Source: a virus. Taken from it: a stretch of DNA of 22,487 nucleotides. Positions 1,855 through 20,334 of the stretch are shown in pieces. The stretch's first letter is position 1. Every line of letters begins with the position of its first letter. The stretch is taken from positions 1-22,487 of IMG/VR virus record IMGVR_UViG_3300046804_003199. One strand, 5' to 3'. Below the pieces are notes generated by a model. It worked only from the letters and a program-made list of their open reading frames with translations. It made no database searches and had not been told where the DNA came from. Both the position numbers and the translations under genes were made by a program.

Positions 1855-1875
1855 TTATCCACAGACTTATCCACA
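1855..1875 (-). other. Pair of DnaA boxes
   Basis: Two perfect TTATCCACA boxes (1855-1863 and 1867-1875) lie in direct repeat with a 12-bp period, next to a CGCCTAG box (1844-1850) in an AT-rich intergenic region. TTATCCACA is the classic high-affinity DnaA site. An equally spaced pair in the opposite orientation lies at 11683-11703. Roles could be origin function, DnaA titration or DnaA-controlled transcription of the gene at 1996. Confidence 0.7.
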
Positions 1876-5755: not shown

Positions 5756-5820
5756 CTAAATCGCCTAGGGGGTGTGATCTAAATCATAGTCCAAAATATG
5801 AGATTATTTACGTACTTGAT

Positions 5821-10781: not shown

Positions 10782-10970
10782 CCAGGCCCGCCTAGATAAC
10801 ATATCAAACCACAAACCATTGTGTCAAGTTATTACGAATAATTGATTACGATCCCAAACCTTTTATCTCCAAACCAAATCTAGGATCGATAAAAATTTTA
10901 TCTATTTTTTATAAAAGGATTACGATCCAAAACAAATTTCCCCCAAACCTTATATCATAATATTTATGGT

Positions 10971-11000
10971 TTGTCAAACCTTCAAACCATAGTGTATGAT
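10971..11000 (+). promoter_or_regulatory. Promoter of a possible small RNA
   Basis: TTGTCA (10971-10976), 18 bp containing two CAAACC sites, and TATGAT (10995-11000). The only thing downstream before a strong terminator is about 75 nt of non-coding sequence. Confidence 0.45.
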
Positions 11001-11005
11001 TGTAT

Positions 11006-11076
11006 CTCTATGTATTGTACTAGGAGTATTACGATCTCTTCTTCTAGTCCCCGCCGATTTTTGCGGGGGCTTTTTT
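11006..11076 (+). ncRNA. Possible small RNA ending in a terminator
   Basis: Between the promoter at 10971-11000 and the hairpin at 11049-11076 no frame with a ribosome binding site can be read, so a ~70-nt RNA is predicted. Its promoter is covered by CAAACC sites, like the other promoters in this region. It could be an antisense or countertranscript-type control RNA, but no target is evident in the window. Confidence 0.35.
11049..11076 (+). terminator. Strong Rho-independent terminator
   Basis: CCCCGC (11049-11054) pairs with GCGGGG (11063-11068), followed by GCTTTTTT. This is the most canonical terminator in the window. Confidence 0.85.
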
Positions 11077-11143
11077 AAAAGACATTACGAACGCAATTTA
11101 CGAAACCCCTGAAGTTGTTATCAAACCAGGGTATAATGTAATC

Positions 11144-11338
11144 ATGACTCGTGGACACTTCAGCCAAATGAAACCTAAAGATTGGGACGGTTTCAATAAA
11201 GACATAAAGGTTTTAACTGGCATGCTATATACAATTGCTAAGTGGCCTATCAAACCATTCATCCCCGCATTCTATAAAACTGAGGCGGAATATAAAAAAG
11301 ATTACGAACCTATCTATAATCCCCCTATGGATAACTAA
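11144..11338 (+). CDS. Hypothetical protein, 64 aa, leaderless
   Basis: ATG 11144 lies 7 nt after TATAAT (11132-11137) with no Shine-Dalgarno, predicting a leaderless message. The promoter contains a CAAACC site at 11122. The product (MTRGHFSQMKPKDWDGFNKD...) has a central hydrophobic-aromatic stretch (LTGMLYTIAKWPIKPFIPAF) that could contact a membrane, and a polar end. It is the only gene inside the repeat-rich region, so it could encode a replication or regulatory factor, but nothing in the sequence identifies it. Confidence 0.65.
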   Translation: MTRGHFSQMKPKDWDGFNKDIKVLTGMLYTIAKWPIKPFIPAFYKTEAEYKKDYEPIYNPPMDN

Positions 11339-11454
11339 CAAACCATATTTTCTGGTTTTCTGGTTTTTTAAAACCTTTTAAAACTTATTTCGGATTAATT
11401 CGAATTTATTCAAACTTTTGGCAATTTTTCATCCAAATTCCTTTACGAAGATAC

Positions 11455-11534
11455 TTGACAAACCATGATTTTGGATGTATAATGCCCAAACCTTGATATG
11501 ATGGTTTGACAGATATGCGGATATATGGTATAAG
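11455..11534 (+). promoter_or_regulatory. Two tandem promoters overlapped by CAAACC sites
   Basis: First: TTGACA (11455-11460), 17 bp ending TG, TATAAT (11478-11483), with CAAACCAT across the -35. Second: TTGACA (11506-11511) inside a GGTTTG site, 17 bp ending TGG, TATAAG (11529-11534). Both are near consensus, yet no gene starts within 180 bp. They may transcribe a leader, an RNA primer or an sRNA. Confidence 0.65.
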
Positions 11535-11682
11535 TCGATACAATGGTTTGGGATATTTTGGTTTGATAGAGTAATTTTTGGCCCCGCATTACGACCCGCC
11601 TTATAAAAAATGTTCTATCACCCACTATCCTCCACTTTACTCCACTTTAACCCTATCTATAAAAATATCAGTAAGATTTATT

Positions 11683-11703
11683 TGTGGATAAACCTGTGGA
11701 TAA
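11683..11703 (+). other. Pair of DnaA boxes
   Basis: TGTGGATAA (11683-11691) and TGTGGATAA (11695-11703) are perfect DnaA boxes 12 bp apart, the same period as at 1855-1875 but in the opposite orientation. They sit just before the -10 of the next gene, so DnaA could also regulate that promoter. Confidence 0.75.
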
Positions 11704-11723
11704 CTTTACGATACAATAGTTTT

Positions 11724-11933
11724 ATGCCTATACACATTCCAATCTATATCAATGACAAACTGATCAAAACCTATCATATTGGACGAATAGCAGGAGACAC
11801 CAATCCTGACTCCATTAACAAATATCTAATTGTCCAAGACGATGAACTATGGAATGTAGGTAGAGAGTTTGAACATAGATATGGAGATGGGGTTGAAGCC
11901 TGTGTCATCAAAGGTATTCAATCCTGTAAATAA
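11724..11933 (+). CDS. Hypothetical protein, 69 aa, leaderless
   Basis: ATG 11724 is 7 nt after TACAAT (11712-11717). An upstream in-frame ATG at 11610 would run through the DnaA boxes and is rejected. The product opens MPIHIPIYINDKLIKTYHIG and ends with FEHRYGDGVEACVIKGIQSC. It is small and beta-rich; the opening recalls small phage proteins that start with a strand and a DxLIxTxxI motif. Its place between DnaA boxes and iterons makes a replication or control role possible. Confidence 0.65.
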   Translation: MPIHIPIYINDKLIKTYHIGRIAGDTNPDSINKYLIVQDDELWNVGREFEHRYGDGVEACVIKGIQSCK

Positions 11934-11943
11934 CTTTGATCTA

Positions 11944-12029
11944 AAACCTAACAAATTATATTTAATTTACTATAAACCTAACAACTCTCAACCTAAAACC
12001 TAACAACCCTAAAGTAAAAAACCTAACAA
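11944..12029 (+). repeat. Four AAACCTAACAA iterons
   Basis: Exact 11-bp repeats lie at 11944-11954, 11974-11984, 11996-12006 and 12019-12029, all in the same orientation and spaced 30, 22 and 23 bp. A fifth partial copy (CAACCTAAAACC) lies between the second and third. They are followed 3 bp later by a DnaA box in an AT-rich non-coding stretch, a layout typical of iteron-type replication origins. Confidence 0.75.
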
Positions 12030-12031
12030 CC

Positions 12032-12040
12032 TGTGGATAA
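12032..12040 (+). other. DnaA box
   Basis: TGTGGATAA, a perfect DnaA box, directly after the last iteron and abutting the stop codon of the convergent gene (12041). Confidence 0.65.
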
Positions 12041-18148: not shown

Positions 18149-18222
18149 GGAGCAGTAGCCAAGTTGGTCAAGGCCCCGAACTCATAATTCGGTTATCGTA
18201 GGTTCAAGTCCTACCTGCTCTA
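18149..18222 (+). tRNA. tRNA with CAT anticodon (Met or Ile2)
   Basis: Acceptor GGAGCAG/CTGCTCT with a G1-U72 wobble; D-arm GCC/GGC; anticodon stem CCGAA/TTCGG with loop CTCATAA; T-arm GTAGG/CCTAC. The first pair is formed, so it is not an initiator. A separate TAT-anticodon tRNA follows, which makes Met more likely than lysidine-Ile. Confidence 0.9.
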
Positions 18223-18226
18223 CTTT

Positions 18227-18300
18227 GGAATATGGCTGGCTGGTGGTCAGAAGGTGTCTTATAAGCATCTTAGAGTTTGGTTCAATTCCAAAATATTCTA
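18227..18300 (+). tRNA. tRNA-Ile (TAT anticodon)
   Basis: Acceptor GGAATAT/ATATTCT, D-arm CTG/CAG, anticodon stem GGTGT/GCATC with loop CTTATAA (anticodon TAT), T-arm TTTGG/CCAAA. Decodes AUA. UAU anticodons are unusual in bacteria, which normally use CAU modified with lysidine. Starts four bases after the preceding tRNA. Confidence 0.85.
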
Positions 18301-18301
18301 C

Positions 18302-18374
18302 GCCCCTGTAGCCCAGTGGTAGAGGCACACGACTTAAAATCGTGCAAGCGTTGGTTCGAATCCAACCAGGGGTA
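18302..18374 (+). tRNA. tRNA with TAA anticodon (Leu), short variable loop
   Basis: Acceptor GCCCCTG/CAGGGGT, anticodon stem CACGA/TCGTG with loop CTTAAAA, T-arm GTTGG/CCAAC, A73. Anticodon TAA reads UUA. The variable region is only 5 nt (CAAGC), whereas bacterial tRNA-Leu has a long variable arm. This tRNA is therefore structurally atypical. Confidence 0.85.
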
Positions 18375-18378
18375 CTTT

Positions 18379-18451
18379 ACCTCTGTAACTCAGTGGATAG
18401 AGTAGCGGACTTCTAATCCGTTTGTCGTTGGTTCAAATCCAATCAGAGGTG
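18379..18451 (+). tRNA. tRNA-Arg (TCT)
   Basis: Acceptor ACCTCTG/CAGAGGT, anticodon stem GCGGA/TCCGT, loop CTTCTAA, T-arm GTTGG/CCAAT, discriminator G. Decodes AGA, frequent in this AT-rich genome. Confidence 0.9.
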
Positions 18452-18465
18452 CTACAATTAAATAT

Positions 18466-18538
18466 TGGTCTGTAGTTCAGTTGGTAGAACACTCGACTGT
18501 TAATCGAGATGTCGCAGGATCGAGACCTGCCAGACCAG
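18466..18538 (+). tRNA. tRNA-Asn (GTT)
   Basis: Acceptor TGGTCTG/CAGACCA, anticodon stem CTCGA/TCGAG, loop CTGTTAA, T-arm GCAGG/CCTGC. The T-loop is ATCGAGA with A in place of the universal T54. Preceded by a TGC-TACAAT -10-like sequence (18450-18458) resembling the array promoter. Confidence 0.9.
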
Positions 18539-18542
18539 CGAA

Positions 18543-18616
18543 GGTCCGTTAGTTCAGTTGGTTAGAACGCTACCCTGTCACGGTAGAGGTCGTGAGTTCA
18601 AGTCTCATACGGATCG
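18543..18616 (+). tRNA. tRNA-Asp (GTC)
   Basis: Acceptor GGTCCGT/ACGGATC, anticodon stem CTACC/GGTAG, loop CTGTCAC, discriminator G. It starts four bases after tRNA-Asn. Confidence 0.9.
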
Positions 18617-18618
18617 CA

Positions 18619-18691
18619 GAGAAGGTAGGTGCTGTATGTGTGCCAGGGAAAAGGGAAACACATATGCAGCAAGTTGCAACCCTACCTTCTC
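18619..18691 (+). ncRNA. Nested-hairpin RNA after the tRNA array
   Basis: GAGAAGGTAGG (18619-18629) pairs perfectly with CCTACCTTCTC (18681-18691). Inside it TGCTGTATGTGT (18630-18641) pairs with ACACATA-CAGCA (18658-18671, TG bulge), leaving a purine-rich loop (GCCAGGGAAAAGGGAA). An 11-bp stem stacked on a 12-bp stem with an asymmetric internal loop (18672-18680) is not a tRNA, and no T-run follows. It starts 3 nt after tRNA-Asp, so it is probably excised from the same transcript. Confidence 0.65.
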
Positions 18692-18711
18692 CTTATTAGA
18701 TAGGATATTTT

Positions 18712-19050
18712 ATGCCTTATAAAGATGCTTTAAAAGAAAAGGCTGCCAAAAAAGCATGGTATGAAAGAAATAAAACTTTAACATTAAAAAGGTCTAAAGA
18801 TAAAAGAAATGAAAGAAATTTGTATATACTTAATTATAAATTAAATAATTCTTTATGTCTTGATTGCAACATATCCTATCCTCCTCATCAATTAGACTTT
18901 GATCATGTTCGTGGAATTAAAAAGGCTGGAATTAATCAATTAGTTAGAAATGGTACAATGAATCAAATATTAAAAGAAATTTTAAAATGTGAAATTGTAT
19001 GTGCTAATTGTCACAGGCATAGGACTTATATGAGGTCTTTAAAAGTTTAA
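18712..19050 (+). CDS. HNH endonuclease-like protein
   Basis: The 112-residue protein is basic at its N-terminus and has a zinc-type HNH core: C49-x2-C52, LDFDH (D64-H65), C97-x2-C100-H101 and a nearby H103. It lacks an extended DNA-binding region. Free-standing HNH genes in phage tRNA clusters often act as homing endonucleases or remain from mobile insertions. A weak AGGAT ribosome binding site precedes the start. Confidence 0.85.
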   Translation: MPYKDALKEKAAKKAWYERNKTLTLKRSKDKRNERNLYILNYKLNNSLCLDCNISYPPHQLDFDHVRGIKKAGINQLVRNGTMNQILKEILKCEIVCANCHRHRTYMRSLKV

Positions 19051-19056
19051 TATTTT

Positions 19057-19128
19057 GGCACTATCGTCTATCGGTTAGGACATCGCCCTTTCACGGCGGA
19101 AAGACGGGTTCGATTCCCGTTAGTGCTA
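19057..19128 (+). tRNA. tRNA-Glu (TTC)
   Basis: Acceptor GGCACTA/TAGTGCT, anticodon stem TCGCC/GGCGG with loop CTTTCAC, T-arm ACGGG/CCCGT. It starts 6 nt after the HNH stop. Confidence 0.92.
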
Positions 19129-19133
19129 CGATT

Positions 19134-19142
19134 TGGTATAAT
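19134..19142 (+). promoter_or_regulatory. Extended -10 for ahpC
   Basis: TGG-TATAAT (19134-19142) just after tRNA-Glu; a -35 would fall inside the tRNA and is weak. The start at 19172 has AGAAAGAG upstream at about 19158-19165. No OxyR- or Fur-type box is obvious. Confidence 0.55.
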
Positions 19143-19171
19143 GGAATAACTACTAGTAGAAAGAGTAACTA

Positions 19172-19744
19172 ATGAAAACAATTGGTTATAAATTAGAACC
19201 ATTTTCAGTAACTGGAGTAAAACCAGGTGCTTTATCTGGAGATGATTCATTTGTAGAAATAACAGAAAAATCCTTTTCAGGAAAATGGAAAGTGATTGTA
19301 TTTTATCCAAAAGACTTTACTTTTGTGTGCCCAACAGAAATTGTGGCATATGATAAGTTAGTTAATGATTTCAATGATCGTGATGCAGTTCTTATGACAG
19401 GATCTACAGACAATGAATTCTGTAAGATTGCATGGCGTAATGCACATGAAGATTTAAAGAAAACAAATTCTTGGTCTTTTGCAGATCAAATTCGTGATTG
19501 GAATTGGGAGACCGAAGACGATAGAGGTTATACAGGTCTTGCAAACCAACTTGGTATCTTAAATAAAGATGGTGTTGCTCTTCGTGCAACATTTATTGTT
19601 GATCCAGAAAATGTGATTCAACATGTTACAGTAAATAATCTTAATGTTGGTCGCAGTCCAGAAGAAACTCTTCGCATTCTTGACGCACTTCAAACTGGCG
19701 AACTCTGTGCATGTAACAGAACTGTTGGTGGCGAAACCCTATGA
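19172..19744 (+). CDS. ahpC: Alkyl hydroperoxide reductase AhpC (2-Cys peroxiredoxin)
   Basis: The 190-residue protein has the peroxiredoxin motif DFTFVCPTE with peroxidatic C53 and an end GELCACNRTVGGETL with C179 and C181. Two nearby C-terminal cysteines, rather than one, is the layout of mycobacterial AhpC (C61, C174, C176). It reduces hydroperoxides and peroxynitrite with electrons from the adjacent AhpD. Length and motifs are intact, so it should be active. The stop overlaps the ahpD start. It sits between tRNAs, as an acquired host-type gene would. Confidence 0.95.
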   Translation: MKTIGYKLEPFSVTGVKPGALSGDDSFVEITEKSFSGKWKVIVFYPKDFTFVCPTEIVAYDKLVNDFNDRDAVLMTGSTDNEFCKIAWRNAHEDLKKTNSWSFADQIRDWNWETEDDRGYTGLANQLGILNKDGVALRATFIVDPENVIQHVTVNNLNVGRSPEETLRILDALQTGELCACNRTVGGETL

Positions 19745-20253
19745 CTTGGGTTGACGAACTGAAAGAATTAGTTCCTGAATATGCTAAAGATATTAAATTA
19801 AATCTTGATGCAGTTATTGCTAGAAGTTCTGTTGATTATGATTATGCCTCTACCCTCGCACTTGCAGCAGCGTTGGCTACAGGTAATCAGGATATTGTTG
19901 CAATGATTTCTGCTGGAGTAGATGATGAGGTTGAAAAAAACGCAGCATTTACCGCAGCAGCATTAATGGCACAAAATAATGTGTGGTATCCATATATTGA
20001 GATGGCAGATGATCCAAATCTTAAAGGATTACCTGCACAACTTAGAATGAATGCTATTGCATCTCATGGTGGCACAACTAAGGCTAAGTTTGAATCTTAT
20101 GCCTTAATTGCATCCATCATTGGTAAATGTCATTTTTGTGTAAAGGCTCATTATGAGACACTTAAGCAAGAAGGATATACTACCGAACAACTTCGTGATA
20201 TTGGACGAATTGCTGCAACAATCAATGCTATTGCTAAGGTTGTAGTAGCATAG
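19741..20253 (+). CDS. ahpD: Alkyl hydroperoxide reductase AhpD
   Basis: The 170-residue protein matches actinobacterial AhpD in length and catalytic positions: E118, C130, C133 and H137 (in FESYALIASIIGKCHFCVKAH). The mycobacterial H132 is replaced by Phe, with His at 131 instead, so the CxxC is CHFC. AhpD reduces AhpC and is itself reduced by dihydrolipoamide through DlaT/Lpd in mycobacteria; these would have to be host enzymes. Overlap ATGA with ahpC means coupled expression. tRNA-Thr begins 6 bp after the stop. Confidence 0.93.
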   Translation: MTWVDELKELVPEYAKDIKLNLDAVIARSSVDYDYASTLALAAALATGNQDIVAMISAGVDDEVEKNAAFTAAALMAQNNVWYPYIEMADDPNLKGLPAQLRMNAIASHGGTTKAKFESYALIASIIGKCHFCVKAHYETLKQEGYTTEQLRDIGRIAATINAIAKVVVA

Positions 20254-20259
20254 TGGATT

Positions 20260-20331
20260 GCCTCCTTAACTCAGGGGTAGAGTACTCGCCTTGTAAGCGA
20301 GATGTCGTAGGTTCAAATCCTACAGGAGGCT
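20260..20331 (+). tRNA. tRNA-Thr (TGT)
   Basis: Acceptor GCCTCCT/AGGAGGC, anticodon stem CTCGC/GCGAG with loop CTTGTAA, T-arm GTAGG/CCTAC, discriminator T. Probably co-transcribed with ahpCD. Confidence 0.93.
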
Positions 20332-20334
20332 CAA

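Follow-up and report, generated by a model that had tools for sequence, protein, structure and literature searches.

Several described systems resemble the locus considered here. In the iteron plasmid origins RK2 oriV, P1 oriR, pSC101 and F, DnaA boxes lie by an AT-rich melting segment together with locus-specific repeats, in a layout whose orientation and spacing are conserved (PMC4980987). Bacterial oriC regions contain arrays of the perfect DnaA box TTATCCACA, identical 9-mers that recur with a period of 11-12 bp, separated by spacers such as GGT, GAC or AG and neighbored by AT-rich DNA. In addition, oriC-like sites have already been predicted in other phages, for example in the lytic Pseudomonas phage PseuGes_254, where DnaA boxes and AT-rich DNA were predicted by Ori-Finder (PMC11512268). 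In the open literature, a scope that leaves most subscription journals outside, we found no paper on the start of replication in large virulent actinophages that encode a replisome of their own, and no description of the element reported below.

This element lies at about 10.8-11.7 kb in a virus record of 22,487 bp (the window, meaning the whole stretch of DNA analysed). Like the plasmid origins, it combines boxes, an AT-rich segment and repeats of its own, but it has no recognised rep gene next to it, its repeats (CAAACC) are short and irregular, and it belongs to large tailed phages. By sequence comparison it shares with bacterial oriC the tandem high-affinity DnaA boxes that serve as one criterion for such origins, with the same period, spacers and AT-rich neighbor; however, no dnaA or dnaN gene was seen beside it, it usually has two to four boxes, and it carries additional phage-specific modules. 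Whereas the site in PseuGes_254 is a prediction in one genome, the evidence for the window element is comparative. Judged from that evidence, the element is probably, though far from certainly, a phage replication origin aided by host DnaA.

The virus, its relatives and its host

The window record is a 22.5-kb fragment, and its long relatives measure 100-120 kb. More than 100 relatives were gathered with a small gene and a DUF932 gene of the window as search queries. The window DUF932 protein and the DnaE and terminase of one relative have their best matches in Streptomyces phages of the Stanwilliamsviridae, with identities of 52-56% over the three proteins; at the DNA level, named phages gave no direct match to the window region. 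Another clue comes from the relative G010, which encodes a WhiB family protein. Since WhiB is reported to be exclusive to Actinobacteriota (PMC10202952), this points to an actinobacterial host. The cultured phages discussed below include MindFlayer and MulchMansion, the satellite helpers whose group in the actinobacteriophage database, the BE cluster, consists of presumed virulent phages (PMC10690885).

The peroxiredoxin gene of the window was dropped as a host clue, its nearest matches being mostly in Proteobacteria. This AhpC-like gene directly adjoins an AhpD-family gene (19172-20253), here in a phage. The window also contains eight tRNA genes (18149-20332) and, at other places, 2OG-Fe(II)-oxygenase-like genes.

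DnaA boxes and repeats in the window

The original prediction for this DNA described an iteron-type origin composed of two perfect DnaA boxes with a 12-bp period, a small gene, four AAACCTAACAA repeats taken as iterons, and a third perfect box. All of these features exist, together with a further pair that it missed:

1855-1875, plus strand: second tandem DnaA-box pair, TTATCCACA-GAC-TTATCCACA (class A), 12-bp period
11683-11703, minus strand: tandem DnaA-box pair, TTATCCACA-GGT-TTATCCACA (class B), boxes at 11683-11691 and 11695-11703
11724-11933, plus strand: small gene of 69 aa with ATG at 11724, phrog_3491-like (E 5e-4), present in viral relatives
11944-12029, plus strand: four AAACCTAACAA repeats, starting at 11944, 11974, 11996 and 12019
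12032-12040, minus strand: third perfect DnaA box TTATCCACA, beyond the small gene

The window thus has five perfect boxes against 0.38 expected, a number that none of 100 shuffles reached. The class A pair adjoins a CRP/GlxR-like palindrome and GGCGTGTCG promoter elements, and relatives often have a class A-like pair, separated from the element by about 9-12 kb. Both kinds of motif recur in the window. Between 163 and 4421, the plus strand has eight copies of GGCGTGTCG, two of them with one mismatch, mostly 5' of TTGACT-type promoter-like sequences, and the whole window has nine matches against 0.6 expected. Matches to the CRP/GlxR-like palindrome TGTGA-N6-TCACA number eight against 1.0 expected; those of the early region, mostly with one mismatch, lie at 184-199, 257-272, 445-460, 1887-1902 and 5773-5788.

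The relatives separate the parts of the predicted origin. The tandem pair, with a spacer of 2-3 bp, is found again in dozens of relatives, within their homologous elements. The AAACCTAACAA copies, with start-to-start distances of 30, 22 and 23 bp, are retained only in L004 (four copies) and L003 (one copy) and were therefore rejected as the defining repeats of an origin; their similarity to the Thermotoga maritima DnaA box AAACCTACCACC (PMC4285127) is probably a coincidence. The third box has its position in L004 only, and a box elsewhere on that side of the element is found in a few other relatives. The small gene is a genuine gene with 34 viral relatives. The original prediction called it leaderless, a label left uncertain by a conserved promoter about 240 bp upstream. 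It lies kilobases from the boxes in most relatives, and so it was discarded as a component of the conserved element.

The conserved element

The conserved element extends to the opposite side of the box pair from AAACCTAACAA and is read on the minus strand. With a profile derived from 45 sequences, it was located at 71 distinct loci, and in these 71 distinct relatives its order and orientation are fixed. On the minus strand, the TTATCCACA pair with its 2-3 bp spacer is followed by 8 bp, TTACTGAT, two to three AGTGGAG, TCGTAATG, CAAACC repeats, inverted copies and, finally, a sigma-70 promoter on the opposite strand. In addition to the class B pair, the window has the following features:

11645-11682, minus strand: AT-rich segment resembling a DNA unwinding element (DUE), with conserved ATAAATCTTACTGAT
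11621-11646, minus strand: AGTGGAG direct repeats with a 10-bp period, read on the plus strand as CTCCACT at 11630 and 11640 with a degenerate third copy at 11621
11587-11600, minus strand: conserved GGCGNTCGTAATG motif, the window copy being GGCGGGTCGTAATG
11506-11534, plus strand: second promoter-like unit, TTGACA-N17-TATAAG, aligned with TATAAT in several relatives
11455-11483, plus strand: perfect sigma-70 promoter, TTGACA-N17-TATAAT, pointing towards the inside of the element
10805-11565, mixed strands: array of 16 CAAACC/GGTTTG copies, iteron- or operator-like

Duplex stability was profiled from -400 to +600 relative to TTACTG in the 71 relatives. The lowest mean stability falls at -20 to +30, where mean GC is 22%, and the very AT-rich TTACTGAT lies inside this segment, 8 bp from the box pair. 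The spacing is strict: of the 49 relatives carrying a box there, 46 have the nearest box end at 8 bp from TTACTG, boxes at the element always share a single orientation, and TCGTAAT lies 77-82 bp from TTACTG in 63 of 71 relatives. In about 25 of the 71 the core is retained but this place has no perfect pair, and some of these relatives have box pairs only at promoter-like class A places.

The AGTGGAG repeats are highly specific to this site, with 1.75 copies per 50 bp compared with about 0.006 elsewhere. The CTCCACT repeats at 11630-11646 had been missed by the original prediction; in their TCCAC core they are similar to weak DnaA boxes that are oriented the other way. One may argue that the element is instead a structured RNA leader, in which UCCAC repeats of the transcript pair with GUGGA of the boxes, and RNAalifold does form these pairs in 15 of 15 sequences. 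However, the pairs are practically invariant, with a covariation term of only -0.28, the repeats are retained in relatives that have no boxes, and the element has no Rfam match. An RNA structure was rejected for its lack of covariation and of an Rfam match, and we give this explanation hardly any credence. A leader of one particular gene was rejected as well, because the gene that follows it differs between relatives, mostly without homology by crude ORF calling.

The CAAACC/GGTTTG array and the perfect promoter had also been overlooked. The window contains 35 copies of CAAACC/GGTTTG against 11.8 expected, including the 16 in the array. The spacing of CAAACC is irregular, in multiples of about 8 bp, and copies lie on both strands. 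Of seven core-bearing full genomes, six have clusters of the motif at the element or no more than about 0.8 kb away; a single cluster lies off the element (G013, 25.2 kb), and G023 has none. The promoter attains the full score of 12/12 in 54 of 69 relatives and in none of 345 shuffles.

A conserved, perfect promoter aimed through the element is what one would also expect of a DnaA-regulated early promoter region, where DnaA acts as a transcription factor on strong early promoters, CRP/GlxR-like proteins act at the class A places, and replication starts elsewhere. Moreover, class A pairs and the inverted pairs of freshwater relatives sit in early promoter islands with TGTGA-N6-TCACA palindromes and GGCGTGTCG motifs, so some boxes may serve transcription. 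As an account of the element, this explanation is nonetheless unlikely: the boxes do not coincide with the conserved promoter but follow it at a distance of about 200 bp, their spacing to the AT-rich segment is fixed, and the downstream genes are variable.

Replication genes and strand composition

If the element is an origin, the genes around it and in its relatives should be considered as well. The relative G010 encodes a replisome comprising a DnaB-type helicase, a DnaG-type primase, DnaE, SSB and RecA, along with a Cas4-like nuclease. The DnaA domains PF00308 and PF08299 had no match in any of 13 phage records, while controls gave matches. No initiator (Rep) family was found among the neighbors of the element and the scanned proteins of the early and replication regions, and no helicase loader was recognised among the proteins scanned, which are part of the genome's proteins. 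GC skew, a check proposed with the original prediction, cannot decide where replication starts, because at fourfold sites it follows the coding strand, with the same sign nearly everywhere in six genomes; it was set aside as an uninformative indicator.

A possible course of initiation

The original idea of a DnaA-box, iteron-like origin fits the comparative evidence because the modules are ordered with fixed spacing, a low-stability segment lies beside the boxes, and the replisome comes without a detectable DnaA; what did not hold is the choice of the AAACCTAACAA array and the small gene as its parts. Boxes at a fixed position next to an AT-rich segment, as in an iteron-type theta origin, count in its favor. 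We infer that host DnaA would bind the tandem TTATCCACA pair, that the adjacent AT-rich TTACTGAT, 8 bp away, would then melt, and that the phage DnaB-like helicase would be loaded at the melted TTACTGAT, followed by primase, SSB and the DnaE polymerase, with replication starting at the element. Such a use of host DnaA would make these phages depend on the host initiator, or compete for it. A factor of phage or host origin, guiding initiation or setting its timing, would bind to the AGTGGAG repeats and to the CAAACC/GGTTTG array, and transcription from the perfect promoter across the element would aid opening. Since the core persists in relatives without boxes, perhaps it is what is essential, with DnaA as an accessory.

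Other observations count against an origin. These are the relatives without a perfect pair, the boxes located in promoter islands, the satellites without a box cluster and the preference of Streptomyces DnaA for TTGTCCACA (both below), the uninformative GC skew, the lack of a recognised initiator or loader, and a CAAACC spacing unlike the 17-22 bp of classical iterons.

Box clusters in other phages and in bacteria

The exact pair is present in 23 of 30 long records, whereas the reversed-pattern control gave none. Clustered boxes occur in all nine near-complete relative genomes, compared with 1 of 270 shuffles, and each of these genomes has 3-10 boxes with several extra clusters outside the element. 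These extra clusters, and the fact that box pairs shift place between relatives, would suit a titration site, a decoy that sequesters host DnaA and halts the replication of the host. Yet 3-10 boxes per genome are few unless copy number is high, and a decoy has no need of strict orientation and spacing relative to other modules. A datA-like site would have many clustered boxes without an unwinding element, whereas here the boxes are few and an AT-rich segment adjoins them. Titration is thus very unlikely to explain the element.

Among cultured phages, ten Streptomyces phages were scanned, nine recorded as Stanwilliamsviridae plus Riptide. Every one of them carries TTATCCACA within a single noncoding region (about 118.7-124 kb), and in nine the boxes are clustered; Bmoc has a single perfect box in the matching region. 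Gilson, Sham and Phredrick have a tandem pair with a 12-bp period and a third box 252-255 bp further. As seen in NootNoot, Gilson, Yaboi and BillNye, this noncoding region by the right terminal repeat resembles the window element in its box pairs and TCGTAA motifs, and the pairs of NootNoot flank the DUF932 gene on the side where they lie in the window. The AGTGGAG/TTACTGAT core was not detected there by the freshwater profile, and in Boydwoodruffvirinae the pairs are inverted, unlike the tandem pair of the window. Furthermore, these phages carry TTATCCACA, whereas the high-affinity box of Streptomyces DnaA is TTGTCCACA (PMC4285127). The box site is present in the satellite helpers MulchMansion and MindFlayer, and no box cluster was found in the satellites MiniFlayer and MulchRoom, which are described as missing key replication genes and relying on helper machinery (PMC10690885). 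Because DnaA-box clusters recur in Streptomyces phages that are in culture, laboratory tests of how replication starts become feasible.

The position of these boxes also bears on genome ends. From the end of the inverted pair to the start of the right copy of the direct terminal repeat (DTR), the distance is 60-62 bp in five phages of Boydwoodruffvirinae type, namely NootNoot, Yaboi, LukeCage, Riptide and MulchMansion; the DTR length of MulchMansion was taken from PMC10690885. Such a position suggests a genome-end junction element, whose boxes would mark or serve the start of the long terminal repeat for packaging or repeat copying. In the Loccivirinae phage BillNye, however, the DTR starts 5.1 kb away despite conserved boxes, and the contig ends of freshwater relatives show no clear clustering at the element; we consider this reading distinctly unlikely, and such a junction could coexist with an origin at one place. 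The Boydwoodruffvirinae-type DTR boundary near the inverted pair reads GTGTAAT(G/A) (L366, L368, L372, L375 and L416).

Returning to an origin aided by host DnaA, a broader proposal is that large virulent actinophages of a whole family, the Stanwilliamsviridae and their freshwater cousins, initiate with host DnaA at or near the terminal-repeat junction and load their own DnaB there. We regard this as possible but doubtful. If true, origin firing would be tied to the forming of long terminal repeats.

Identical tandem pairs make up oriC-like arrays in the genomes of bacteria. The sample was a class sample of 369 genomes around L317, and the arrays inspected look proteobacterial by gene order; they were used to show how the pair looks in oriC, not for host assignment. 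Three of the seven arrays inspected have an adjacent ORF with a DnaA-type Walker motif.
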